The position numbers and the translations under genes are program-made. From an uncultured Alphaproteobacteria bacterium (GTDB taxonomy: Bacteria > Pseudomonadota > Alphaproteobacteria > RF32 > CAG-239), in NCBI GenBank assembly GCA_944393215.1, contig CALXZL010000001.1, positions 137,718-201,717 on the forward strand: a DNA stretch of 64,000 nt, read 5' to 3'. How positions within the stretch are numbered: the stretch's first letter is position 1; the number at the start of each line of letters is the position of its first letter. The notes beneath the pieces are model-generated. The model saw only the letters and a program-made list of their open reading frames with translations, had not been told where the DNA came from and did not search any database. Positions 5,053 through 60,761 of the stretch are shown one piece after another.

Positions 5053-8000
5053 TCAACCAACTTTCATCAAATTGGCTGTATCTGTCCATAAGATATATGT
5101 TTCAATTCTTTGCGTCGGATAAATTTTGGCAATCAGTTCCTTATAAGCCGAAAGTTGTTTGATATAAGCCGGCGGAATATCGGCAACGGTTTGGGCTGCC
5201 GGTCGATTCGTCTTAAAATCAATAATCATCACACGGTCTTTTTCCACCACCAAACGGTCAATTTGTCCGGAGATGATTCTGTCCTTCACCTGCCCCATCA
5301 CCGGCACTTCGGCTTTAGAATTTTCTCCAAACACGGCAGCAAAATCAGGATTTTGAAGAAGAACAGAAACTTCTTCAATCACACGATTATGTTCACGCAA
5401 AGACAAATCAGGCGCATTCTTTTGCAAAAATTCATCAATCACCAAAGCCGTATCGGCATTTTTGATTTCGGGCAAAAATTGCAAAAGTTTATGAATAATC
5501 GTACCGCGGCGATATTTGCTTTGTCCGTTTTCTCCAAGCGGGGAAGCAAAGATCTCGTCTTCCCCTTCCTCATCCAATTTGGAAGGAGTTAAAGGTTTGG
5601 CGAGCAAACTTTCGGTTTGAGGCAAAGTATGAACCCAATCAAAATCCGGCACTTGAACAATAGTCTTTTCTTTTTTATCGTCATTTTCTTTTTGAAATTG
5701 TTGCGGCACTTCATAAGAAAGGACATCATCACCTTGAGTTTGAGCTATTTGAGAAAAACTTTGCTGACACAGATTATACCAAGACTCATCACTAATTTTC
5801 TTACTTTTTTTATAGCCGCAAATATACAATCTGTCTTCGGCTCGAGTTAAAGCCACATATAAAAGTCGACGATATTCCTCCAAAGAACGCTCTTGTTCTT
5901 CTTGTTTAAGACGCAAACAATTTTTCTCATAATTTCGCGAAGAAAAAGGATAATACATCACCTCATCGTCAAACCAAAGAGCTGCCTCGCTTTTAATATT
6001 TTTCACTCGTACCGTATCGGGCAAAATCACAATCGGCGCCTGCAAACCCTTCGAACCGTGCACGGTCATAATCCGCACTGCATCCATATGATTTTGCTCT
6101 TGTTCGCGCTTAATTTCAACTTTATCTTGAGCCATCCAGCTTACAAAATTCTGAAGGCTTGGAATATGCTCTTGCTCAAAATTAAGGGTTAAGTTTACAA
6201 ATTCGTCAATACCGTCTATCGCTTCTTCTCCAAGGCGAGCAACAAACTTTTTGCGCCCCTGCATTTTGTTCAAAATATAAGCATAAAGCTCAAACGGTCG
6301 CACATAATCTGCCATATTCAGCAAGGTTTGTAATTCGGCATATGTTTCTTTATAAGCCGGATTATCGCCGAGTTTGCTCCAAAGAGAAGCATGACCGCGA
6401 TTATAGCAAAGTTTGAACAAATCATCATCATCCAGCCCGAAAAGCGGTGATTTCAAAATCGTTGCCAAAGTCAAATCATCCGCAGGGAGTAATAAAAATT
6501 TTGCGACAGCCACCAAATCTTGAACGGCAATTTGTTCCGAAAGTTTGATTTTATCCGCACCGGCAATATTAACATTATTATTTTTGCACTCACGGATCAA
6601 CTCTTCAACAAAACAATCACGTTGTCGAACCAAAACCATAAAATCACCAAAACGCACGGGACGATTTTGTGAAACCAACATTTCTTTATTGCTGACCATT
6701 TCTTTAATTTTAAGTGCAATCATATTTGCCAAACGAGAGCTGGTAGAAGTGGCGATTTTGCGTTCTATGGGCGGCAAATAGATATCAGGATTTTCATCTT
6801 CTTCTGCTTCCAACAGAGACCAAATTTCCACTTTTCCGCCGTCGCCAATTCTGGAAGGTGTATGCGTCATATCCTGCGTATCGGGGACGACGCCTTTTTT
6901 AGCCTGAGGCAAAGAAAAAACCTGATTAACCGTATCTAAAATTGCGGCAGTGGACCGAAAAGAAATATCCAGATGCACTTCTTCAAAACTATTCAATGGA
7001 GCCAATTTCTGAGCAAAATAACGACGCATATTTTCAAATTCTTTTGGATCTGCTCCTTGAAAAGAATAAATAGACTGTTTGCGGTCGCCCACAGCAAAAA
7101 CCGTTCGAGTTTGGTTTGAAGAGCTTGCACCGTTAAAGAAATCTTCAGTCACGGCACGAATAATTGCCCATTGGTCGGGAGAAGTATCTTGCGCTTCATC
7201 AATCAGCACATTATCAATACCGCCGTCCAACTTAAACAAAACCCAATCAGCCACGCTCTTATTTTCCAAAAGTTCACGAGTTAAAACAATCAAATCCTCA
7301 TAATCCATTTTAGAGTAAAGCCGCTTATATGACTTATAACCATTAATTAAATCTTCCGCCAAATATAAAACGGCTTTGGTGGTTTGCAACAAATTAGCTG
7401 CCGTCAAGCGATTATTAAGTTCAATCACGCTTTCTGCCAAAAGTGACATTTTTTCACTTGCTTCTGGATAAACTTGAAGCGTATCTTTTGATGCAAGTCT
7501 GGCACGCTTTTCTCCTTTGGTAAGAAACACATTTTGAAAAGCATCATAATTATCGGCATTGAGCCCGTTTTCCAAAACAAAAGCAAAAATTGCCGCCGCT
7601 TTATTATCCGTATCTTTACCGGAAAACAGAGCATTCATCAAAGTTTTAAGTTCAGCTTTGTCAAGTTTTTCTGCATAGTCGGCAATCAAACTATCCTTGG
7701 TATCGGTCGGAGAAATACCCAATTTGTGCGCCGTTTGAACAAAGAGTTCCTCCACACTATTATATTGCGCAAACAATCGAGCAATTTTACTGCGTTTTGC
7801 TGCGATGTTATTCATAATTCTCGGAAAGATATATTCACTCACGTTTTGGGTAATAAAAGCCAAACTTTGAGAGGCTTTGCTATTAGGGTTGAGTTCAATC
7901 TGCCGCAACAAATGCGCTTTGACTTCTTCCAAAGCTTCCGCCGCGGCACGTTCATCCATTACTTCAAAATAAGGTGAGATTTTGGCTTCCAACGGAAAGC

Positions 8001-8441: not shown

Positions 8442-11333
8442 TCACTCCTCTGTATCAATCTCAACAACTGACCACTCCTTCACTCGCGCCAAATGCTCAT
8501 AATCGGAATATTCCGGCACATTTTTCGGATTCGGTCGGCTATGATACGGCGTATCTTCAAAATCAAACATATGAATAAGTTTGGCAATCTGCTCCAAATT
8601 GTGATCAAGCGTAGCATCCATATCACCGTTAATTACCGTATCTTTACGTCCGAGCTGCCAATAGATGAGTTCGGCAACCTTCTTTTTATCAATACCGGCA
8701 AAACCTCCGGCACGTGCAATCAAGCCTTCAATCGGCAACTGAGGCGCTTTACCGGTTTCCACCTCTTTTTTAGAACGAGCACTTCCGGTTTTATAGTCAA
8801 TAATGTTAATTTTGCCGTCTTTGGTTTCATCCACACGATCGGCTTTAGCCGTTAAAACAAAATCTCCGGCAGGGGCATTAAGTGTCAATCTTCCTCTGAC
8901 CTCATTATGAACCCTCTGAATATTTTGCCGATATTCCGGTTCTTTATTAATTAACCAAGTTATGATTTTTACAAAATTAGGCCACCAAAAAGCACGGGTT
9001 TCCTGTGCAATTTCATTTTCGGCAAAATATTTTTCACCCAGTGCCACATATTCTTCTTCCGCGTTATCGGGAAAAGCACTTGGATGCAGATTATTAAATT
9101 CCTCCAAAATGGCATGAATAATATTACCGTAATCTGCCCTTGATAAATCTTGTTCAATTTCTTCCAAAGGCTTAAGTTTCAAAATATATTTGGCAAAAAT
9201 GGCATAAGGATCACGCATCCACATTTCCACGTTGCTGGCAGACATCTCGCGCGGACGGGCATAAACCGGTGGTTTAGGAGCCGGCGGCAAAATTTTGATA
9301 TATTCTTTGGGCTTATCTAAATCTTTGGCAATCAAACGATAAATCACATCTTCCAAAGCATCTGCTTCATAGCCGAGGGCTTTTAAGACGGTTTCCAAAC
9401 GCAACCACCAACGAGAGCAGACCTGCGGCGTACCCTGAACTTTTCCGGCGCGGGTTAAATAAAGCTCTTCGCCCCCCATAAACTCGGCAAAATCTTTTGC
9501 CATAATACCAATGGCTTTTTCCGGCAACGGAAAACCGAATTCTTTTTTCATCGGGCGCGACATCCATGGATCAGAAGTAGCGTTTTTGGGCCAGATACCC
9601 TCGTTGACTTCACCCAAAATCGTCACGTCATATTTCACCAAACGCGCCTCAATCGGACCTAAAATCTTCAATCTCGGGTGTGTACCAAACTTCGGACGCA
9701 CGGTTACACTGCTCATCAAGGCTTCAATCAGACTCAAATATTCTTGTGCTTCCACCTCGCCCAAAACTTCGGCTTTTTCCAATAAGTCAGCAAAGAAATG
9801 TGCCGCTGCCTCACCGGCATCACCCTTCCACAAATTAAGCGCCCCGGCTTTTGTATCTGTGGCAGCCAGAGCTTCCGCCACTTGCAAATGAGCTTGAATA
9901 AGTGCTTTCAAATCGACTTTTTCTGCAAGATAAAGATTATAAAGCGGAGCAAAAACTTCCTTCATTTTTTGCTCAAAGGCTTGCAAGATTTCATCTTCTT
10001 TTTGCGCGCGCCAAACTTTTTCTTCGAGCATACGGCTCATGCGACGCACTTCGCCGTTCTTTTGCCCGTTATTGGTAAGCGGATGTTTGAGCAAACTCAA
10101 AAAATCTATCCGGTTAAAATCACCTTCACAAACTTTTGCCACCAAACGCAAAAAATTTCCGACCGGGGTTAAAAATAAAGGCTTACCGGCGGAATCATCA
10201 ACTTTAATTTCCCAGCGCTCGAGCTCACTTGCCACACGGCGCGCCAAATTTCTATCTGAGGTGATGAGTGCCGCGGTTTTTTCCGGCTCTTCTAAAGTTT
10301 CACGCATAATCAGCGCAATCGCCAAAGCCTCTTCTCGAATATCGGCACAATCAATCAAACTAATACCGGCTGTTGCCTCAATACCAAGTTTTTTCTTTTG
10401 AATATCACGCCATTTATCGGTGGTTTTTGCCGGACGCATAATCTCGGAAATCAGCGCTTCACGCGGTTTGTTTTGCGGCTCTGTCAAATCGTCAATTTGC
10501 GCGCGTTCAATTTGCAAATAATCAAGCAAGAGCTTAAATTCAAATTGCGGATGTGTTTCATCAATCTCTTGCCAATCTTCTTCATCCAAATCTCTGTCCA
10601 AGCCAGAGAGAATAACCTCACCTTGAGGCAAGTTCAAAACCGTTTGCACCAACTCCTTCATGGCTGGGTATGTGGCGGTGGTTCCGGCAATGATAATGCG
10701 TTTGTCCGGCTTGGTCTCCGCCCATTGACGACTTTGCGCGCGAATAAGCAGATTGCGACGCTCGCTTGGATCAATTAAATTTCTTTCTTTGAGAATATCC
10801 GGCCAAAAACGGGTAATGATTTCCAAAAACTTCAAAGTTTCTTGCCAATGCGCGGCATATTCTTCCGGCACCAAATTTTGCAAATTGGCAAAACTCAAGT
10901 CTTCATTGTTAACCGTATCTATAAGATTGGCGAGCTCTTGCGCCAAAAAGCAAGCTTGATTGAGGGGAATTTTCTCCAAACCAAAATCAGAGGGCTTTGC
11001 CATAATGATTTTGGTAAACAAGAGCAAACGCTCATTGCGCTCAATCGCAGGCGGCAAGTTCAAAATCTCGACATCACTATCCAAGCCGGAAAGAAAAAGC
11101 TCATCGTCCTCCACATCACCAATCGGTATCATTTTCGGCAATAAGGTCGGCGCCATACCTTGTGCACGCACAAAAGCATCCGCCATTGACTTAACCGCAC
11201 GACGGTTAGGAAGAAGGAGTAAAACCTCGGCTAATTCTAACGGATTATTTTGATATTCCGCCAAAAGTTTGCCTGCCAAAGTGTCAACAAAAGAGCAGGT
11301 TGCAGGAATGTTATACAATCGGCAGACAGACAT
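8442..11333 (-). CDS. addB: AddB nuclease/inactive helicase subunit
   Basis: Second subunit of AddAB, of the alphaproteobacterial AddB type. The 963-residue protein carries an N-terminal helicase-like region with LLLPNRRAVKSMADAF, a middle region with LGPIEARLVKYDVTILGEV and NEGIWP, and a C-terminal nuclease motif NIIDYKTGSA. AddB helicase motors are generally inactive, while the nuclease domain cuts one strand. The gene starts 3 bases after rdgB and is read just before addA, giving a tight rph-rdgB-addB-addA-trxA transcription order on the minus strand. Confidence 0.95.
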   Translation of the reverse strand: MSVCRLYNIPATCSFVDTLAGKLLAEYQNNPLELAEVLLLLPNRRAVKSMADAFVRAQGMAPTLLPKMIPIGDVEDDELFLSGLDSDVEILNLPPAIERNERLLLFTKIIMAKPSDFGLEKIPLNQACFLAQELANLIDTVNNEDLSFANLQNLVPEEYAAHWQETLKFLEIITRFWPDILKERNLIDPSERRNLLIRAQSRQWAETKPDKRIIIAGTTATYPAMKELVQTVLNLPQGEVILSGLDRDLDEEDWQEIDETHPQFEFKLLLDYLQIERAQIDDLTEPQNKPREALISEIMRPAKTTDKWRDIQKKKLGIEATAGISLIDCADIREEALAIALIMRETLEEPEKTAALITSDRNLARRVASELERWEIKVDDSAGKPLFLTPVGNFLRLVAKVCEGDFNRIDFLSLLKHPLTNNGQKNGEVRRMSRMLEEKVWRAQKEDEILQAFEQKMKEVFAPLYNLYLAEKVDLKALIQAHLQVAEALAATDTKAGALNLWKGDAGEAAAHFFADLLEKAEVLGEVEAQEYLSLIEALMSSVTVRPKFGTHPRLKILGPIEARLVKYDVTILGEVNEGIWPKNATSDPWMSRPMKKEFGFPLPEKAIGIMAKDFAEFMGGEELYLTRAGKVQGTPQVCSRWWLRLETVLKALGYEADALEDVIYRLIAKDLDKPKEYIKILPPAPKPPVYARPREMSASNVEMWMRDPYAIFAKYILKLKPLEEIEQDLSRADYGNIIHAILEEFNNLHPSAFPDNAEEEYVALGEKYFAENEIAQETRAFWWPNFVKIITWLINKEPEYRQNIQRVHNEVRGRLTLNAPAGDFVLTAKADRVDETKDGKINIIDYKTGSARSKKEVETGKAPQLPIEGLIARAGGFAGIDKKKVAELIYWQLGRKDTVINGDMDATLDHNLEQIAKLIHMFDFEDTPYHSRPNPKNVPEYSDYEHLARVKEWSVVEIDTEE

Positions 11334-12740: not shown

Positions 12741-12878
12741 TACCGTAAAATACAAATTTTTTATAAAATTGTATTATACGAGGAAGATAATAAGATTTAA
12801 GGAAAATTGCGAGGGAGTGTACTTTTGGGGTACATGACCGAACAATTTATCCGTAAAATCTGTATTAGATTCCCATAC
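12741..12878 (+). repeat. Hairpin repeat, copy 1
   Basis: First of three related elements of about 138 bp. It folds into a long imperfect hairpin: outer arms TAATA / TATTA and GATTT / AAATC, middle arms AAATTG / CAATTT, and a tip TGTAC / GTACA around a 7-base loop. A small leading hairpin, ATACAAATTTT / AAAATTGTAT, precedes it. Between 12755 and 12876 it is almost identical to copy 2 except in the tip loop. The strand is arbitrary. No reading frame is involved. The 80 bases between rph and the element hold nothing recognisable. Confidence 0.85.
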
Positions 12879-12880
12879 CA

Positions 12881-13093
12881 AACAAAAAATTTGGAGACGG
12901 CCGCTAAAGAAAGCACCAAAATGTGCTTTCTTTAAGGAGACGCAATGAGACTTGGCTTTGGCAGAATGCGATAGCTTTCAGGGCAAAGCCTTAGTCGGAA
13001 TTGTCGAGTAGTAGGCGCCAAGGGAAAAAGTACCGCAGCGTACATAGAGGTACGTGAGGACGCTTTTTACCCGATGGCAACGCACTAATCGTC
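12881..13093. other. Structured GC-richer block between two hairpin repeats
   Basis: Three successive stem-loops fill this gene-free stretch. (1) 12906-12933: a perfect 11-bp stem AAAGAAAGCAC / GTGCTTTCTTT. (2) About 12938-13009: nested arms CAAT / ATTG, GACT / AGTC and GGCTTTG / CAAAGCC. (3) About 13008-13087: nested arms TAGT / ACTA, GCCA / TGGC, GGG / CCC, AAAAAG / CTTTTT and CGTAC / GTACG. The tip of the third (GTAC-ATAGAG-GTAC followed by GTGA) resembles the tip of the flanking hairpin repeats (GTAC-AAAGAG-GTAC, ATGA). It is richer in G and C than the surroundings. It could be a small RNA, a mobile palindromic element, or both; direction of transcription is unknown. Confidence 0.55.
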
Positions 13094-13230
13094 CATTATA
13101 CGAATTTTTTATAAAATTGTATTATACGAGGAAGATAACAAGATTTAAGGAAAATTGCGAGGGAGTGTACAAAGAAGTACATGACCGAACAATTTATCCG
13201 TAAAATCTGTATTAGATTCCCGTAGAATAC
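13094..13230 (+). repeat. Hairpin repeat, copy 2
   Basis: Nearly identical to copy 1, with a different tip loop (AAAGAA between TGTAC and GTACA) and one other substitution. The outer arms TACG / CGTA pair fully here. Its right end lies only a few bases beyond the glgA stop codon (13235-13237), so in glgA mRNA it would form the first structure after the stop and may act as a 3' stabiliser or terminator (inference). Confidence 0.85.
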
Positions 13231-13234
13231 GATT

Positions 13235-15274
13235 TTACAGTTGACCGGTTTTCAGCAGATTAAAATACTTGTAGACGGAACCTCCTTCAATATCCCAACT
13301 AAAATCTTTGCGCATGGCAGCAGCTTGCATTTGTTTGATTTTTTCGGGTTTATAAAAGAAGGTATTAATGGCATGATTTAGGGTTTCGGTATAGGCATTT
13401 TTATTGTTTTTAACGCGCCGTGCCGTAATATTATTACCATAAACATGTTGTTTTTTGGCAAAGAAGACTTCGGTTCTGAAACCATCCACCCCGTCTTCAA
13501 TGGTATCAACCAAGCCCCCGGTTGATGTTGCCACCGGGAGAGCGCCTTTTGCCATGGCCTCCATTTGGGTGAGACCGCAAGGTTCAAAACGAGACGGCAT
13601 AAGATAAAAATCGGCAGCAAGCTGAATGGCATAAGCAAATTCATCTTTATATCCTCTGAAAACAAAAATGCGCTTAGCGGCAATCGGGCTGACTTTTGCC
13701 ACATCATCTTTGAGTTTTGCAAGATATTGTTTGAAATAGTCTTTATCACCGGCACCACCGAGAACGAAAATCGGATATTCGCGATATGTATGATTTTCAA
13801 GTACGTTTAAAATAGCTTTTGCAGCAATATCATAACCCTTTTGTTCCACCAAACGACTGGTCATACAAAAGACGGGAGTTTTTTCCACATCTTGCACAGA
13901 CTTTTCAATATCATTAAATTTATAGGTATCAATCAAAGGAATAACTTGATTTTTATAATTTTCATCTTTTGCAATATGAGAAATAAGTTTAATAAATTCA
14001 ACTTTATTATGGAGTTTGACATCCAAATGATTTTCATCAAAATACTTAAAATCGGTATTTTTAAAATAAGCATTAATAGCCTCAATTTTATCTTTGAGAG
14101 GCGCAATCAGCTTTTTATCATAACCATTGACAATACCATAAAAATTGCGGTGATCTTTTCTGATTTTCAAGACATCACGAAAGTCCAGTCCGAGTTCCAA
14201 CTCTTTGGACACTTCTTCCATATAGTTTTTAGAAACGGTCACAATTCTGTCCGCCGCAAAAACATTGCAAGCTGCCTGATTATAACAATCAGAAACAATC
14301 AAACTATTAATGGCTCTGGGGTTGCTGTTTTTAACGGTTTTGGCATTTTTAAAGACAAGGGTTGCCAAATCTTCATATAAAGAATTGAGTATTTTGGAAG
14401 TATTATCATAATCCCAACCCTGATAACCAAAATGGTGCGCAATATGAACAATGGGAATATTTTTAAGTTGGCGAGCAATTTTTTCATCCAGAATTCCGGC
14501 TTCAATCTGAGCCAGTGTAAAATATTTAGTCAAACCGGATAACGCCCCCACGTGCCAATCATTAGCAATCAAAACATTGGGCAAACTAATTTCGCGACAA
14601 TTTTTGCAAGCGATTGTTTCAAGAAGCTCATAAACAGACTTAGAGAAGAAGGCAAATCTTTCAACCTCATTAACATTAAATTCATTTAAGACATAGCATC
14701 CGTCTTGAGCCGAAACATTTTTTGGGCTTGGATTAATAGAGAAGAAGCGCTCGTTTTCCAAAAAGATATAATCGGTATTACCCCATTTTGCACAATAAAC
14801 ATTAACGGCAAAACGGGTTAAGACGGCTCTGTTTCCAAAAAAAGGAACGTGGATTGTCTTTATTTTTTTAACTTTAACACTTTTACCTTCGGCACCGAGA
14901 TAAACATCTCCGTTGAGTTCGGCTTTTTTCTTACCGGTATTACCAAGATACATCGGTGTAACGACGGTACAAGCGTGCCCGTCTTTTCCGAAAGTTTTAT
15001 TAAAAGCCTCGGGCAATTCGGAAGCGACCATTCCCAATCCTCCCCATTTCATAAAAGTACCGGTTTCAGCCGAAACCATCCAAGCATTAAGCTTATCAAT
15101 TTCGGGCCAAGAAAAACGTCCCAAACATTGACTGCGAGAGATATTTTGGATTTCTTTGAGATGAGGATTATTACAAACAGGATAGATAACGGAAAATTTT
15201 TTCTTTTTATTAAAATCTTTATCCAAAAATTTATACTGCACATCGGAACCTGAGATGGCAACATTATTATTCAT
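13235..15274 (-). CDS. glgA: Glycogen/starch synthase (GT5 family), unusually long
   Basis: Predicted to transfer glucose from ADP- or UDP-glucose to a growing alpha-1,4-glucan. GT5 signs: SAETGTFMKWGGLGMV (the K.GGLG donor-binding motif) near residue 70, NDWHVGAL, TSRLVEQKGYDIAAK in the second Rossmann domain, and PSRFEPCGLTQMEAM followed by ATSTGGLVDTI (the E..G...E retaining-transferase signature). At 679 residues it is about 200 longer than ordinary bacterial GlgA; the excess is spread through the first half. The start at 15274 has AAGGTAAGG upstream. It stands alone, divergent from grpE, with no glgB, glgC or glgP nearby, and occupies the place where relatives have hrcA. The donor cannot be told from sequence. 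Confidence 0.85.
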   Translation of the reverse strand: MNNNVAISGSDVQYKFLDKDFNKKKKFSVIYPVCNNPHLKEIQNISRSQCLGRFSWPEIDKLNAWMVSAETGTFMKWGGLGMVASELPEAFNKTFGKDGHACTVVTPMYLGNTGKKKAELNGDVYLGAEGKSVKVKKIKTIHVPFFGNRAVLTRFAVNVYCAKWGNTDYIFLENERFFSINPSPKNVSAQDGCYVLNEFNVNEVERFAFFSKSVYELLETIACKNCREISLPNVLIANDWHVGALSGLTKYFTLAQIEAGILDEKIARQLKNIPIVHIAHHFGYQGWDYDNTSKILNSLYEDLATLVFKNAKTVKNSNPRAINSLIVSDCYNQAACNVFAADRIVTVSKNYMEEVSKELELGLDFRDVLKIRKDHRNFYGIVNGYDKKLIAPLKDKIEAINAYFKNTDFKYFDENHLDVKLHNKVEFIKLISHIAKDENYKNQVIPLIDTYKFNDIEKSVQDVEKTPVFCMTSRLVEQKGYDIAAKAILNVLENHTYREYPIFVLGGAGDKDYFKQYLAKLKDDVAKVSPIAAKRIFVFRGYKDEFAYAIQLAADFYLMPSRFEPCGLTQMEAMAKGALPVATSTGGLVDTIEDGVDGFRTEVFFAKKQHVYGNNITARRVKNNKNAYTETLNHAINTFFYKPEKIKQMQAAAMRKDFSWDIEGGSVYKYFNLLKTGQL

Positions 15275-27038: not shown

Positions 27039-27893
27039 ATGATTGATTTATCAGAAAAAATAAATGAGCTTCCCGGTTTAAGAGAAACGGTAGGACGTCA
27101 CGGCTTAATGGCAAAAAAAGCCTTAGGACAGAATTTTTTGCTGGATAGGAACATAACGGACAAAATCATCAACACTTCTCTGACAAAACAAAAAAAGCCG
27201 GATTTCAGCGGAGAATATGTTATTGAAGTCGGTCCCGGACCGGGAGGACTGACACGTTCGGTATTATGCCGCAACCCCCAAAAATTGACGGTTGTGGAAA
27301 TGGACGAACGCTGCATTGAGATTATGCAGGAAATCAGAGAAAAAGTAGGCGAAGATAAACTTGAAATCATCAATGGAGACGCCTTGAAACAAGACTTTTC
27401 AAAGTTTGAAGGAACACCGAAAAATATAGTCAGCAATTTACCTTATAACATTTCCGTACCTCTGCTGGTCAGTTGGTTAAAACAAATTGAAAATTTTGAT
27501 AGTCTGACATTGATGTTCCAAAAGGAGGTTGCGGACAGAATTTGTGCCCCTACAAAATGCAAAGATTATGGTCGAATTTCGATTCTGTCACAACTTTTGT
27601 GCAAAATTGAGCGCTTGTTTGATATCAATCCCAACTGTTTTGTGCCTGCCCCCAAAATTTGGTCTACAGTGGTTTTATTCCGTCCCAAACCTGCCAACAT
27701 TGAATCAAAACTTTTAGAAAAAGTAGAAAAGCTGACCACGCAAGCCTTTAGCCAGCGCCGCAAGATGATTCGCCAAAGTTTGAAATCAGTTAAAGGGTTG
27801 GAAGAAAAATGCGCTTCACTGGGGTTAGATTTAACGCTTCGTGCCGAAGAAATAACACCGGAACAATATCTGGAGCTGGCAAAGCTACTTTAA
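27039..27893 (+). CDS. rsmA: 16S rRNA dimethyladenosine transferase
   Basis: Dimethylates two adjacent adenines near the 3' end of 16S rRNA late in 30S assembly. The 284-residue protein has the start region AKKALGQNFLLD, SAM-binding VIEVGPGPGGLT, the catalytic motif NLPYNISVPLL, and a C-terminal FVPAPKIWSTVV region with AFSQRRKMIRQSLK. It starts one base after surA and its last 9 bases overlap the 3' end of xerD on the other strand. Confidence 0.97.
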   Translation: MIDLSEKINELPGLRETVGRHGLMAKKALGQNFLLDRNITDKIINTSLTKQKKPDFSGEYVIEVGPGPGGLTRSVLCRNPQKLTVVEMDERCIEIMQEIREKVGEDKLEIINGDALKQDFSKFEGTPKNIVSNLPYNISVPLLVSWLKQIENFDSLTLMFQKEVADRICAPTKCKDYGRISILSQLLCKIERLFDINPNCFVPAPKIWSTVVLFRPKPANIESKLLEKVEKLTTQAFSQRRKMIRQSLKSVKGLEEKCASLGLDLTLRAEEITPEQYLELAKLL

Positions 27894-28790
27894 TCGACTC
27901 AACGGATGCAGTTTTTTTACCGTATCAATCAGTTTTTCCGAAGTAATATGGGTATATATCTCGGTTGTGGAAATATCTTCATGTCCGAGCATTTTTTGCA
28001 CACTACGCAAATCAGCATCATGATTAAGCAATCGTGTTGCAAAAGTGTGTCGCAGAACGTGCGGAGAAATTTTTTCAGGCGAAATACCGGCTTCCGCGGC
28101 AAGCTCTTTCAAAGCCACAAAAAAGGCCTCTCTGGTCATATGTCCGGAAGATGAAGTAAGAGAAGGAAACAGCCAAATAGATTTTCTACCGCCGCGGATA
28201 AAATTATCACGATAAGTTGTATAATCTAACACCGCTTCAATCGCCTCGTCAGAAATAGGAATAAGTCGCTCTTTGCTTCCTTTACCTCTGACTAAAATTT
28301 CTTTTTTATCAAAATTGATACAATTTTCCGGTAAACCGACCAGCTCGGAAACACGCAAACCACAAGCCGACATTAAAATCAACATAACGGCTAGGCGACG
28401 CGCATGGATTCCCTCTTTGGCAAAAGCCGTATCAATCAGTTGTTTGAGCTCGGTTTCCGTTAAAAACTTAGGCAACGGCTTTTCTTGCTTGGGAGCCATG
28501 AGATAAGCCGTCGGATTCTCTTTAATTTCCTTTTCGGAAAAAAGAAATTTAAAAAATTCTTTTAATGCCGAGATTTTGCGGGCAATACTTTTTGGAGCAT
28601 AATTCATACGGCTAAGCTTTTGCACGTATTGAAAGACATCATTATCTGTTACGTTTGCCATATCGGCAATAGGAACCAAAGACAAAAACTGTTGCAAATC
28701 ACGTTGATAATTTTCAATCGTATTCTGGGAAGCGCCACGCTCCGCCACCATCATGGCTAAAAAGCCTTCCAGTAAAGCTCCCGCCGACAT
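27885..28790 (-). CDS. xerD: Tyrosine recombinase, XerD type
   Basis: Site-specific recombinase that resolves chromosome dimers at dif with a partner Xer protein and FtsK. The 301-residue protein has an N-terminal SAM-like core-binding domain and the catalytic domain with SACGLRVSEL (first Arg), KGSKERLIPI (Lys), HVLRHTFATRLL (His-x-x-Arg), MLGHEDISTTEIYTHI (His and nucleophile Tyr). XerD rather than XerC is a judgement from overall sequence. A small membrane-protein gene ends 2 bases before the start. Confidence 0.87.
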   Translation of the reverse strand: MSAGALLEGFLAMMVAERGASQNTIENYQRDLQQFLSLVPIADMANVTDNDVFQYVQKLSRMNYAPKSIARKISALKEFFKFLFSEKEIKENPTAYLMAPKQEKPLPKFLTETELKQLIDTAFAKEGIHARRLAVMLILMSACGLRVSELVGLPENCINFDKKEILVRGKGSKERLIPISDEAIEAVLDYTTYRDNFIRGGRKSIWLFPSLTSSSGHMTREAFFVALKELAAEAGISPEKISPHVLRHTFATRLLNHDADLRSVQKMLGHEDISTTEIYTHITSEKLIDTVKKLHPLSRLK

Positions 28791-29561: not shown

Positions 29562-29592
29562 ACAACTATTTGCCGCTAAATTGCTCTAGTTC

Positions 29593-29730
29593 ACCGTTAT
29601 ACGGATTTTTTAGAAAAGTTTGGAGAACGAGGAATATAATAAGAAACCAGAAAAAATTTGAGGGAGTGTACAAAGAGGTACATGACCGAAAATTTTATTC
29701 GCAGTTTCTGTATTAGATTACCGTTATACA
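29593..29730 (+). repeat. Hairpin repeat, copy 3 (diverged)
   Basis: This copy is related to the elements at 12741 and 13094 but clearly diverged, while keeping the fold. Outer arms AACG / CGTT replace TACG / CGTA, GAAAC / GTTTC replaces GATTT / AAATC, and the middle stem is AAATTT / AAATTT instead of AAATTG / CAATTT. The tip TGTAC-AAAGAG-GTACA is unchanged in the stem. The sequence ACCGTTATAC appears at both ends. It lies between convergent aroK and the ADP-dependent kinase gene and ends about 10 bases from the latter's stop. Confidence 0.8.
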
Positions 29731-29739
29731 AGCTTTTCT

Positions 29740-31140
29740 CTAGCGGGCGGAAACTAAAGACATCGACGATATCGTATCACCCATACCCACAAGCGTAACC
29801 GGCTTTTCAATCAAAATGGTCGGCAGCGCAATCACATCAAATCCATCAAAGGTCGAAATACCTGTTTCAAGTAAAGATTCATCTCCGATATAAGCCGCCA
29901 AATCTTTAAGCTCATTAAGCCCCACATCAGAAACTTCACGACCTTGCGCCCAAAGCAGGTTTTCTTTTTGGTTCACACTGCCCGTACCGGCTTTTCCGGC
30001 AGCAATCGTGGCGGCAGTCATCATACCGCGCAAGTTCGCTTCGGAAGAAATAACGGCATTTTTATCTTGCAAAGTGATGTAAAGACCAAACATATGCAAC
30101 TGGATTCTGGGTGCTTTAAGGGCTTTCTTAATCGCCACCAGCGCTTTGAACATATTTTGACTATGCGTATCTTTCTCGCAGGCTTCAGCCAATTTTTCTT
30201 GTCCGATAATTTCTAAAATATCAATAGCCTCACGCTCGTTAATGCCGATTGAATCAACCTTCGGCGCAATTTTTTCAATAATGGCTTTGCGTACAGCCAG
30301 ATCTTGCGTGGAAGCAATTTCCAAATGTACGATTGTGCCATTTTCCTTCCAAATTTTGAGCATTGGCAAAACGCTATGCGTGAGCACCACACCGTCATTA
30401 TTTTCAGTCAAGGCATGAAAACCGGATAAAATCATATAATTGAGTTTATTTTTCTCGGCTGCCTTCACAAAGTTTTCATCCATAACCAAATGGAGGTTCA
30501 GAGGATCATAAGTAGCAATAAAGCGGTTGGCTTTGGGGCAAACAAAAGTCTCACCGTCAAGCTCGACTTTATCGCCTTTATCAAACTCAATAATCCAATG
30601 AATAAGCGGAATATCGGTTTTGCGATCAATTTGATAAGCAGGCTTTTCATTTCCCTTTTCATCAAAAGAAAGCAGGTTATCAAGAGCCAAAAATTGTTGA
30701 GCTTGCAATTCCGGCAAAGAGTTAGCATGAGCATAAACTTTTTTCACACCGGCGACAGCCAAAATGTTAGCCACAATACCGCCTTGTCCGCCCATTTGCA
30801 AACGGTCATAGCCTAAATTTTTGACCATCCAATCATAAACAAGCTTATCTTCCGTCAACCACTCTTCGGCAATACCTTTAGAAAAGCATTTAAAAATACC
30901 TTTAATAACATCTTGCGGAGAAGAAAGTTTAGTTTCTTTAATGTCTTGAAGTTGTTTTAATGACAAATTTTGTGCCTTAGCCAGCTCGGCTATTTTTTTA
31001 CCACTGATTTTTAACACGGCATCCACATTGGTATTAAAAGCGGTAGCCGCAGTTTCAACTTTTTGAACGGCGTTCAACGTTTGCGGAACAACTTTATATT
31101 TTTCAAGCCAAGAAGTTTTAGCTTTAGCAAAATCCGTCAT
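29740..31140 (-). CDS. ADP-dependent glucokinase/phosphofructokinase family protein
   Basis: Belongs to the ADP-dependent sugar kinases (ribokinase fold) best known from Archaea and animals. Signs in the 466-residue protein: RLQMGGQGGIVAN near residue 115 (substrate/nucleotide region), SIGINEREA near residue 300 (the NxxE metal site) and the closing GMGDTISS at 452-459 with the catalytic Asp. Members phosphorylate glucose or fructose-6-phosphate using ADP and give AMP; which substrate applies here cannot be read from sequence. GGAGG lies 7 bases upstream of the start, and the gene follows the hemY-like gene by 14 bases, so it is probably in the mic60-hemY transcript. The hairpin repeat follows its stop. 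Confidence 0.85.
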   Translation of the reverse strand: MTDFAKAKTSWLEKYKVVPQTLNAVQKVETAATAFNTNVDAVLKISGKKIAELAKAQNLSLKQLQDIKETKLSSPQDVIKGIFKCFSKGIAEEWLTEDKLVYDWMVKNLGYDRLQMGGQGGIVANILAVAGVKKVYAHANSLPELQAQQFLALDNLLSFDEKGNEKPAYQIDRKTDIPLIHWIIEFDKGDKVELDGETFVCPKANRFIATYDPLNLHLVMDENFVKAAEKNKLNYMILSGFHALTENNDGVVLTHSVLPMLKIWKENGTIVHLEIASTQDLAVRKAIIEKIAPKVDSIGINEREAIDILEIIGQEKLAEACEKDTHSQNMFKALVAIKKALKAPRIQLHMFGLYITLQDKNAVISSEANLRGMMTAATIAAGKAGTGSVNQKENLLWAQGREVSDVGLNELKDLAAYIGDESLLETGISTFDGFDVIALPTILIEKPVTLVGMGDTISSMSLVSAR

Positions 31141-60579: not shown

Positions 60580-60609
60580 ATTATTTATCGTTTCATCCCA
60601 AAAAGCGGT

Positions 60610-60696
60610 GGAGGACATATAGCCTTGATTAAAGTCGTTACGGCTGCTTCCTTCCGAACCTGACCGGGTTGGCGACCAATCAACCCAACGTCCTCC
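60610..60696 (-). ncRNA. ffs: Signal recognition particle RNA (4.5S, small type)
   Basis: On the minus strand the conserved domain IV core reads GGTCAGGTTCGGAAGGAAGC followed by AGCC. The ends pair as GGAGGAC / GTCCTCC, closing a hairpin of about 87 bases. CGCTTTTT follows as a likely termination signal. Position just upstream of dnaX agrees with many Alphaproteobacteria. It pairs with Ffh protein to target membrane proteins. Confidence 0.96.
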
Positions 60697-60761
60697 TTTG
60701 GGTAATATTGCCGAAAACTAAAGAGATTTCAAGCAATATTTATCTTTTATGACAATTAATT

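Follow-up and report, generated by a model that had tools for sequence, protein, structure and literature searches.

The palindromic repeat that recurs in the window (the whole stretch of 64,000 nucleotides analysed, from an uncultured alphaproteobacterium) is best read as a small non-autonomous mobile DNA hairpin of about 125–145 bp, which is joined in one direction to the 3′ ends of genes, probably by way of single-stranded DNA at replication forks. We assign this reading a probability of roughly 0.5. The copies, referred to as rods, are described below mainly from the bacterial family to which the source genome of the window belongs (the host family).

The rods of the window and their neighbours are listed in Table 1. 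An earlier note had described three copies in this DNA. All three are present, but the covariance model R1, which was derived from the consensus structure of an alignment of 27 copies (A2), detects four rods rather than three. It also shifts the third copy from the interval 29593–29730 to the bounds given in the table; the opening 20 bases of the former interval resemble the right half of an older adjacent copy, cut short, which explains why CCGTTATAC was seen at both ends of it. A search of the window that tolerated up to two mismatches found the tip GAGGGAGTGTAC three times, always exact. The paired substitutions attributed to copy 3 were confirmed on reading the sequence: compared with copies 1 and 2, GATTT...AAATC has become GAAAC...GTTTC and ATTG...CAAT has become ATTT...AAAT, and TACG...CGTA of copy 2 is replaced by AACG...CGTT, with both arms altered in every case. 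Copy 1 has TACG...CATA at the corresponding stem, and its right end has diverged.

Table 1. Rods, their parts and adjoining genes in the window.
Feature	Position	Strand	Remarks
Rod copy 1	12764..12889	+	R1 98.7 bits, E 2.6e-26
Insert X	12895..13010	+	Separate folded module that replaces the left arms of rods in several copies; 91% match on G000:C14
Fourth rod	12985..13109	+	Second tip type GTACCGCAGCGTAC...GTACGTGAGGA; R1 85 bits, E 4.4e-22; left end fused to insert X
Rod copy 2	13112..13236	+	R1 124.3 bits, E 3.2e-34; overlaps stop codon of host gene (distance -1)
Host gene of the 12764-13236 array, starch/glycogen synthase-like	13235..15274	-	PF08323, PF00534; stop codon overlapped by rod end
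Apparent right-half remnant of an earlier copy (CTCTAGTTCACCGTTATACGG...)	29584..29612	+	Distal to host gene; from reading of the sequence
Rod copy 3	29613..29737	+	One long imperfect hairpin; R1 (cmsearch) 127.3 bits, E 3.8e-35, this copy being among the 27 used to build R1
Tip of rod copy 3	29665..29685	+	AG-TGTAC-AAAGAG-GTACA-TGA; columns invariant or almost so
Bulged G, 3′ arm, beside invariant TA/TA pairs	29710	+	Invariant in A2; unpaired in consensus structure
Stop codon of copy 3 host gene	29740..29742	-	Adjoins rod end, distance 3 (ORF list, junction table)
Host gene of copy 3, ADP-specific phosphofructokinase/glucokinase	29740..31140	-	PF04587, Pfam E 1.1e-70

The 171 bases around copy 3 fold at -50.2 kcal/mol on the top strand, compared with -31.9 ± 3.8 kcal/mol in 200 shuffles (z = -4.8), and at -36.2 kcal/mol on the opposite strand (z = -3.8). 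The consensus derived from A2 is a rod of 125 positions with 41 pairs in five helices, and changes on both sides were found in 34 of these pairs. Paired cells made up 91.4% of A2 versus 70.4% in shuffles, double-change cells numbered 239 versus 72 ± 7, and the observed value was reached by none of 500 shuffles on any of five covariation measures. When the partners were slid by 1–3 columns, the double-change cells fell from 239 to 39–70. These results bear out the earlier claim that the folded form is the conserved feature. That claim had been accompanied by an alternative, a MITE whose terminal repeats account for the pairing, which is contradicted by the outermost helix: all eight of its pairs are double-changed, as freely as those of the inner helices. 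The near-constant parts of A2 are the tip, two TA/TA pairs and the bulged G. The tip reads, in order, AG, YGTAC, some six bases, GTACR and TGA, and its stem has at the foot a G.T pair that is almost constant (26 of 27 copies, and 107 of 115 in a larger set). Diverged rods from other families have the same plan and little stem sequence in common, as judged by eye. The stem sequence is thus free to vary provided that the long rod persists together with its constant tip, its fixed internal loops and the bulged G. One internal loop, with GAG at A2 columns 12–14 and ATA at columns 123–125, appears to be reversed in some copies, with ATA in the 5′ arm and GAG in the 3′ arm. Comparison with Rfam, as the earlier note had proposed, gave no family above threshold at the element in the window or at 12 loci. 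The sole Rfam match in the window was the bacterial small SRP RNA gene at 60604–60699 on the minus strand, away from the rods; at the 12 loci a 5S rRNA above threshold and one sub-threshold sX11 match both lay outside the rods.

Placement was analysed at 84 sites, nearly all from the host family, 78 of which had a neighbouring gene on both sides. At 76 of these 78 sites the right-hand gene was on the opposite strand, and in 65 of the 76 the right end of the rod overlapped the stop codon of that gene or lay no more than 7 nt from it, compared with 6.1 expected if rods were placed uniformly in the gap. The left end of the rod was at a stop codon in none of the 76. The first neighbour count missed short genes; the junction table covers 67 sites and the 11 others were read back. 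Nine of the 11 abut a stop codon on reading back, which brings the host-family figure to 76 of 78, although several of these sites represent one gene end shared by different species, so that not all are independent. By eye, an rpsO or L25 gene supplies the stop at five of the nine. At L072 and L074 the stop belongs to an unidentified ORF of roughly 100 codons, and at L157 the copy is a partial one that the first count had omitted. Abutment to a stop codon was not established for L032 and L086 (2 of 78 sites) after re-reading. Stop codons at the 67 junctions were TAA in 49 cases, TAG in 17 and TGA in one, and where the stop is 13 or 24 nt within the rod, the rod itself provides it. Many copies appear to carry stops in all three frames near the gene-side end. 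The host genes are mostly housekeeping genes, for example those for IF-2, EF-Tu, YchF, FtsH, RplO and RpoA, as recognised by eye from protein ends; Pfam was applied to five genes of the window. Only one of the 84 sites (L052) had a rod inside an ORF of more than 150 amino acids, and there an L25-like gene end (by eye) abuts from the other strand.

Outside the host family, 9 of 13 loci with a right-hand neighbour obeyed the gene-end rule within 26 nt, and in a partly overlapping set, with ORFs of at least 100 amino acids, 6 of 16 did so within 30 nt. On annotated plasmids the rule was found at 9 of 11 places, corresponding to seven of nine distinct sites, with stops about 10–70 nt from the rod or the matched core; a twelfth record was unannotated. 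The exceptions were L491 and L517, the latter a copy that underlies an annotated hypothetical protein. Automatic ORFs at 30 GC-rich places gave 10 that obeyed, 15 with the gene on the same strand, four that were far and one without a neighbour; this count was set aside as it contradicts the annotation in both directions (wrongly against the rule at L490, wrongly for it at L491). At L529, which is outside the class, a tRNA-Val gene on the opposite strand has its 3′ end 6 nt from the rod at 1501–1623; this one case hints that the recognised feature is the end of a gene rather than translation.

The second rule concerns the strand. All 154 copies on 27 multi-copy contigs, representing 103 sites more than 2 kb apart in six host-family genomes, agreed in strand with the other copies of their contig; the count was read from R1 match lists after one reverse-strand duplicate and 10 copies alone on a contig were dropped. 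GC skew at third codon positions, corrected for gene strand, was negative where the copies were on the plus strand and positive where they were on the minus strand. This agreement held in 18 of 18 stretches from four genomes and in the window, so that the top strand of the rod was C-rich in 19 of 19 cases; the sample left out two stretches without letters, as well as those whose genes all lay on the same strand, for which the skew could not be corrected. The gene-end rule alone does not account for the strand rule, since just 185 of the 333 genes in the 18 stretches were on the G-rich strand. Similarly, rplB was opposite to the rods in all five genomes with rods listed on the rplB contig. In the genomes examined, therefore, the top strand of the rod is always lagging-strand sequence, and it follows that the host genes are on the leading strand. 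On three contigs that cross an apparent origin, rods were found on one side only, so the change of strand was observed from one contig to another and not inside a single contig. Outside the host family 10 of 16 stretches agreed with the skew, three disagreed (two of them near zero), two could not be computed and one had rods on both strands. Contigs with rods on both strands, G208:C38 and G407:C30, both come from outside the host family.

For each of five occupied plasmid sites, one or more related records have matching flanks and are shorter by 142–145 bp. Such filled and empty alleles in named plasmids indicate that the rod is mobile. By alignment and annotation, the landing point was 0 nt from the stop at sites 1 and 4 and 1 nt from it at site 5. 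It was 6 nt from the stop at site 3, where the empty allele retains bases matching the foot of the rod and is possibly a deletion. At site 2 the landing was 60 nt inside the gene, and the annotated gene of the filled allele terminates within the rod. The stops of the empty alleles include TGA, TAA and TAG, and at site 1 the stop is TGA in one strain and TAA in another. No more than three sites showed duplicated bases of 3–4 bp, judged by eye: sites 4 and 5 have CTA/CTAG on both sides and site 2 has TGA, and none was clear at sites 1 and 3.

The history of single sites was followed by comparing relatives. At the site between the kinase gene and aroK, three close relatives of the window species also have a rod, two of them with a different interior, and one of these two rods is a chimera with insert X. 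The interior has thus been replaced at this site while the outer parts were kept. The older remnant at this site, which by eye is the same in two of three close species and divergent in the third, sits on the side of the rod distal to the kinase gene. The L157 array has its decayed unit beside the gene instead, so no rule for the entry side of new units can be given. Tandem units in several genomes are spaced 126–127 bp apart, and subtypes alternate in one array. Arrays of two alternating subtypes with single-arm deletions, as if hairpins had been lost during copying, were observed at L157 (7691–8149), L158 and L160. Insert X includes a strong hairpin and a short ATG frame; it is once joined at the tip and, by eye, is also found at L023 and L147. 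At the same kinase gene end in G003, L150 has a shorter hairpin with a similar tip (5399–5506, 28.7 bits), perhaps a minimal form.

These features could be brought together as follows. An enzyme would recognise the shape of the hairpin as single-stranded DNA and, by way of the single-stranded DNA of a replication fork, would attach it to gene 3′ ends in a single direction. For genes on the leading strand, it is the sense strand that templates the lagging strand. Recognition by shape would free the stem sequence, which would explain the compensatory changes, and landings behind genes would be harmless because of the stops that many copies appear to carry in all three frames at the gene-side end. 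The better-folding strand counts against the fork proposal, as it is the one expected on the leading-strand template and not on the exposed lagging-strand template. No candidate enzyme emerged from searches for Y1_Tnp in six genomes and RVT_1 in 49. The more specific version, replication-coupled transposition with hairpin recognition by shape only, one-way pasting at gene 3′ ends and a mover that is neither a RAYT nor one of the reverse transcriptase kinds searched for, is put forward tentatively for no fewer than 20 alphaproteobacterial families and a few genomes outside the class, and we regard it as a possibility with the odds against it.

Because the better-folding strand is not on the exposed template, selection against the other orientation stays a serious rival. 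Here rods would insert in either direction, hairpins with the stabler strand on the lagging-strand template would be lost in the course of replication, and copies would persist only immediately after a stop codon, where they would do no harm or serve as terminators. The two strands around copy 3 differ by 14 kcal/mol in the direction that this explanation predicts, the arrays have apparent arm deletions, at the end of the kinase gene several rod-free relatives have, by eye, a hairpin resembling a terminator, and the strand and placement rules are weaker outside the host family. However, strand concordance is complete in the host-family genomes examined, rods lie within a few nucleotides of the stop rather than anywhere in the gap (65 versus 6.1 expected), and three of the five polymorphic sites are already at the stop codon. 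We consider selection as the source of both rules somewhat unlikely.

The earlier note had left open whether RNA or cruciform DNA is the folded molecule. Mispairs outside the tip were used to distinguish the two. In the host family G.U and A.C mispairs numbered 100 and 86 or 107 and 94, according to the strand used for deriving the structure, and a separate host-family count gave 124 G.U and 90 A.C. As a control, 25 tRNAs from the same DNA had 46 G.U and no A.C among 556 pairs, although ARAGORN may not draw A.C pairs. The near equality in the host family, which differs from the tRNA control, favours pairing at the DNA level, and we hold this with moderate confidence. The GC-rich relatives do not settle the question, since their ratio of G.U to A.C is 85:19 or 18:19 depending on the strand chosen for the structure. 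A structured RNA, either the top strand antisense to the host gene or a 3′ UTR in the sense direction, would also yield covariation through RNA selection. The strength of the covariation, the conserved internal loops, the conserved G.T/G.U pair of the tip, the better fold of the top strand and the one GC-rich count of 85:19 are consistent with such an RNA. Nevertheless, with either strand G.U and A.C are about equally frequent in the host family, in clear contrast to the tRNA control; a sense RNA would have the conserved pair of the tip as A.C; an RNA gives no reason to expect a link between strand and replication; and Rfam gave no match. An RNA origin of the covariation is therefore rather improbable.

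Among known movers, IS5/IS427-type enzymes prefer CTAG targets, and a DDE transposase of this kind could in principle move the rod as a MITE. The CTA/CTAG on both sides at sites 4 and 5 and the TGA at site 2 (by eye) are what suggests it. This explanation has to face a terminal helix that changes on both sides in all eight pairs, so that there is no fixed terminal repeat, as well as an orientation fixed with respect to gene and replication, which is not expected, and three kinds of stop codon at the sites used; we think it quite unlikely. A similar judgement, a shade more sceptical, applies to an attC-like site, that is, a folded single strand recombined by a tyrosine recombinase. attC sites are characterized by shape over sequence, an extrahelical base and a choice of strand, all of which rods share, and a gene of the Phage_integrase family (XerC/D-like, Pfam) is located at 27885–28790 of the window. 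On the other hand, no cassettes were seen between tandem rods, and the terminal helix is without the fixed sequence that attC core boxes require. That rods are REP-type elements and owe their movement to a RAYT (REP-associated Y1 transposase) is strongly disfavoured: rods are palindromic, extragenic and close to gene 3′ ends, and single-strand transposition would produce a strand bias, but Y1_Tnp was found in one of six genomes and was absent from G003 (49–51 copies) and G012 (53 copies), the locus around the single Y1 gene had no R1 match, and rods are three to six times the length of REPs and have no constant GTAG tag.

A reverse transcriptase was also considered as the mover and is disfavoured by its distribution. 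RVT_1 was found in 15 of 49 genomes; it was present in G010 (58 copies) and G012 (53 copies), and none was found in G003, G009 and G024, which have 49–51, 51 and 66 copies, respectively. The loci around two reverse transcriptase genes had no R1 match. Group IIC introns are inserted at gene ends in a fixed direction and have been linked to single-stranded DNA. They thus resemble rods in fixed-direction insertion at gene ends, whereas reverse transcriptase was unmatched in 34 of the 49 genomes.

With regard to distribution, a DNA search found seven places in the genome of the window and matched 23 of 54 genomes, this one included, and R1 gave 20 matches in the same genome. R1 matched 48 of 49 sampled host-family genomes (0–66 copies each), 29 of 289 genomes sampled across the class (four from the host family, the others spread over 19 further families) and 13 of 299 sampled across the phylum, five of which were outside the class, some of them weak. 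Copy numbers can differ greatly inside one genus, as in g4 with 51, 11, 1, 12 and 16 copies. DNA matches to a GC-rich copy were found in plasmids of Agrobacterium, Sphingobium, Shinella, Phyllobacterium, Mesorhizobium and others. R1 is insensitive for GC-rich copies, as it matched only two of six named plasmids. In viral contigs the tip pattern was found in 105 stretches in one scan and in at least 120 in another, numbers that by a rough estimate are indistinguishable from chance. R1 matched 50 of 80 listed loci from the first scan and all 15 of a further set of viral loci chosen by a longer shared word. One of the viral loci, L308, is by its ORFs a gene-transfer-agent-like cluster filed as viral, with rods at 9068–9186 and 5825–5946. 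In all four records found, the match to the gene adjoining the rod is annotated as a phage major capsid or head gene, and about ten other loci of the viral collection share this capsid gene end (by eye). A rod at the end of the major capsid gene in gene-transfer-agent-like operons could set the ratio of capsid to downstream protein. The possibility that rods are coding sequence was dropped, since reading frames differ among the subtypes (by eye).

Small palindromic mobile repeats are a known kind, and the rods lack the tested defining features of REP/RAYT and CIR and, among those of DDE MITEs, the conserved terminal inverted repeats. The REP/BIME and REPIN repeats are, like rods, short extragenic palindromes, often downstream of coding regions and with stops at their edge, and the termini of GTAG REPs often provide stop codons to flanking ORFs, according to the accessible part of PMC3733652. 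REPs are hairpins of 20–40 bp tagged with GTAG or CGTC, whereas rods are about 125 bp long with variable stems; no constant tag was present in the 27 aligned rods, some of which have GTAG in the foot. Unlike REP/RAYT systems, rods form tandems in one orientation, their strand is tied to replication in the host family, and Y1_Tnp was unmatched in five of six genomes. Rickettsia palindromic elements (RPE) are alphaproteobacterial long stem-loops of 105–146 bp, as rods are, but they insert in frame inside genes and not at gene ends (available text of PMC2229807; compared by description, not by sequence). The Caulobacter CcrM-associated intergenic repeats (CIR), about 110 bp, are likewise alphaproteobacterial and intergenic, but they consist of two arms and a linker with conserved GANTC, as far as the same source could be consulted, while rods are a single rod in the consensus and in most folds, and GAGTC is found in only some copies (by eye). 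The rhizobial RIME, Sm repeats and A, B and C palindromes are intergenic with conserved secondary structure; the accessible portion of PMC2573895, with which rods were compared by description and not by sequence, gave no strand or stop-codon rule for them. Some of the GC-rich rods may be rhizobial repeats that have already been named. Within the accessible part of the literature on bacterial repeats, mostly open-access, we found no description of the rod and its two placement rules, and both were absent from the available text of PMC12306157, PMC2229807, PMC2873474, PMC2573895, PMC3733652, PMC2817692 and PMC10969869.

Small palindromic repeats are common, and how most of them move is a long-standing open question. 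The placement of rods directly behind leading-strand genes points to an unexplained mode of DNA insertion at gene ends. The covariation suggests, besides, that a striking pattern of this kind, which is commonly read as the sign of a functional RNA, can also denote a DNA hairpin. With two strict rules in the host family and natural filled and empty alleles in the cultivable Sphingobium and Agrobacterium, the mechanism is directly testable. If insertion reads the end of a gene, a guide beyond DNA sequence would be needed, such as transcription, translation or the structure of the fork.
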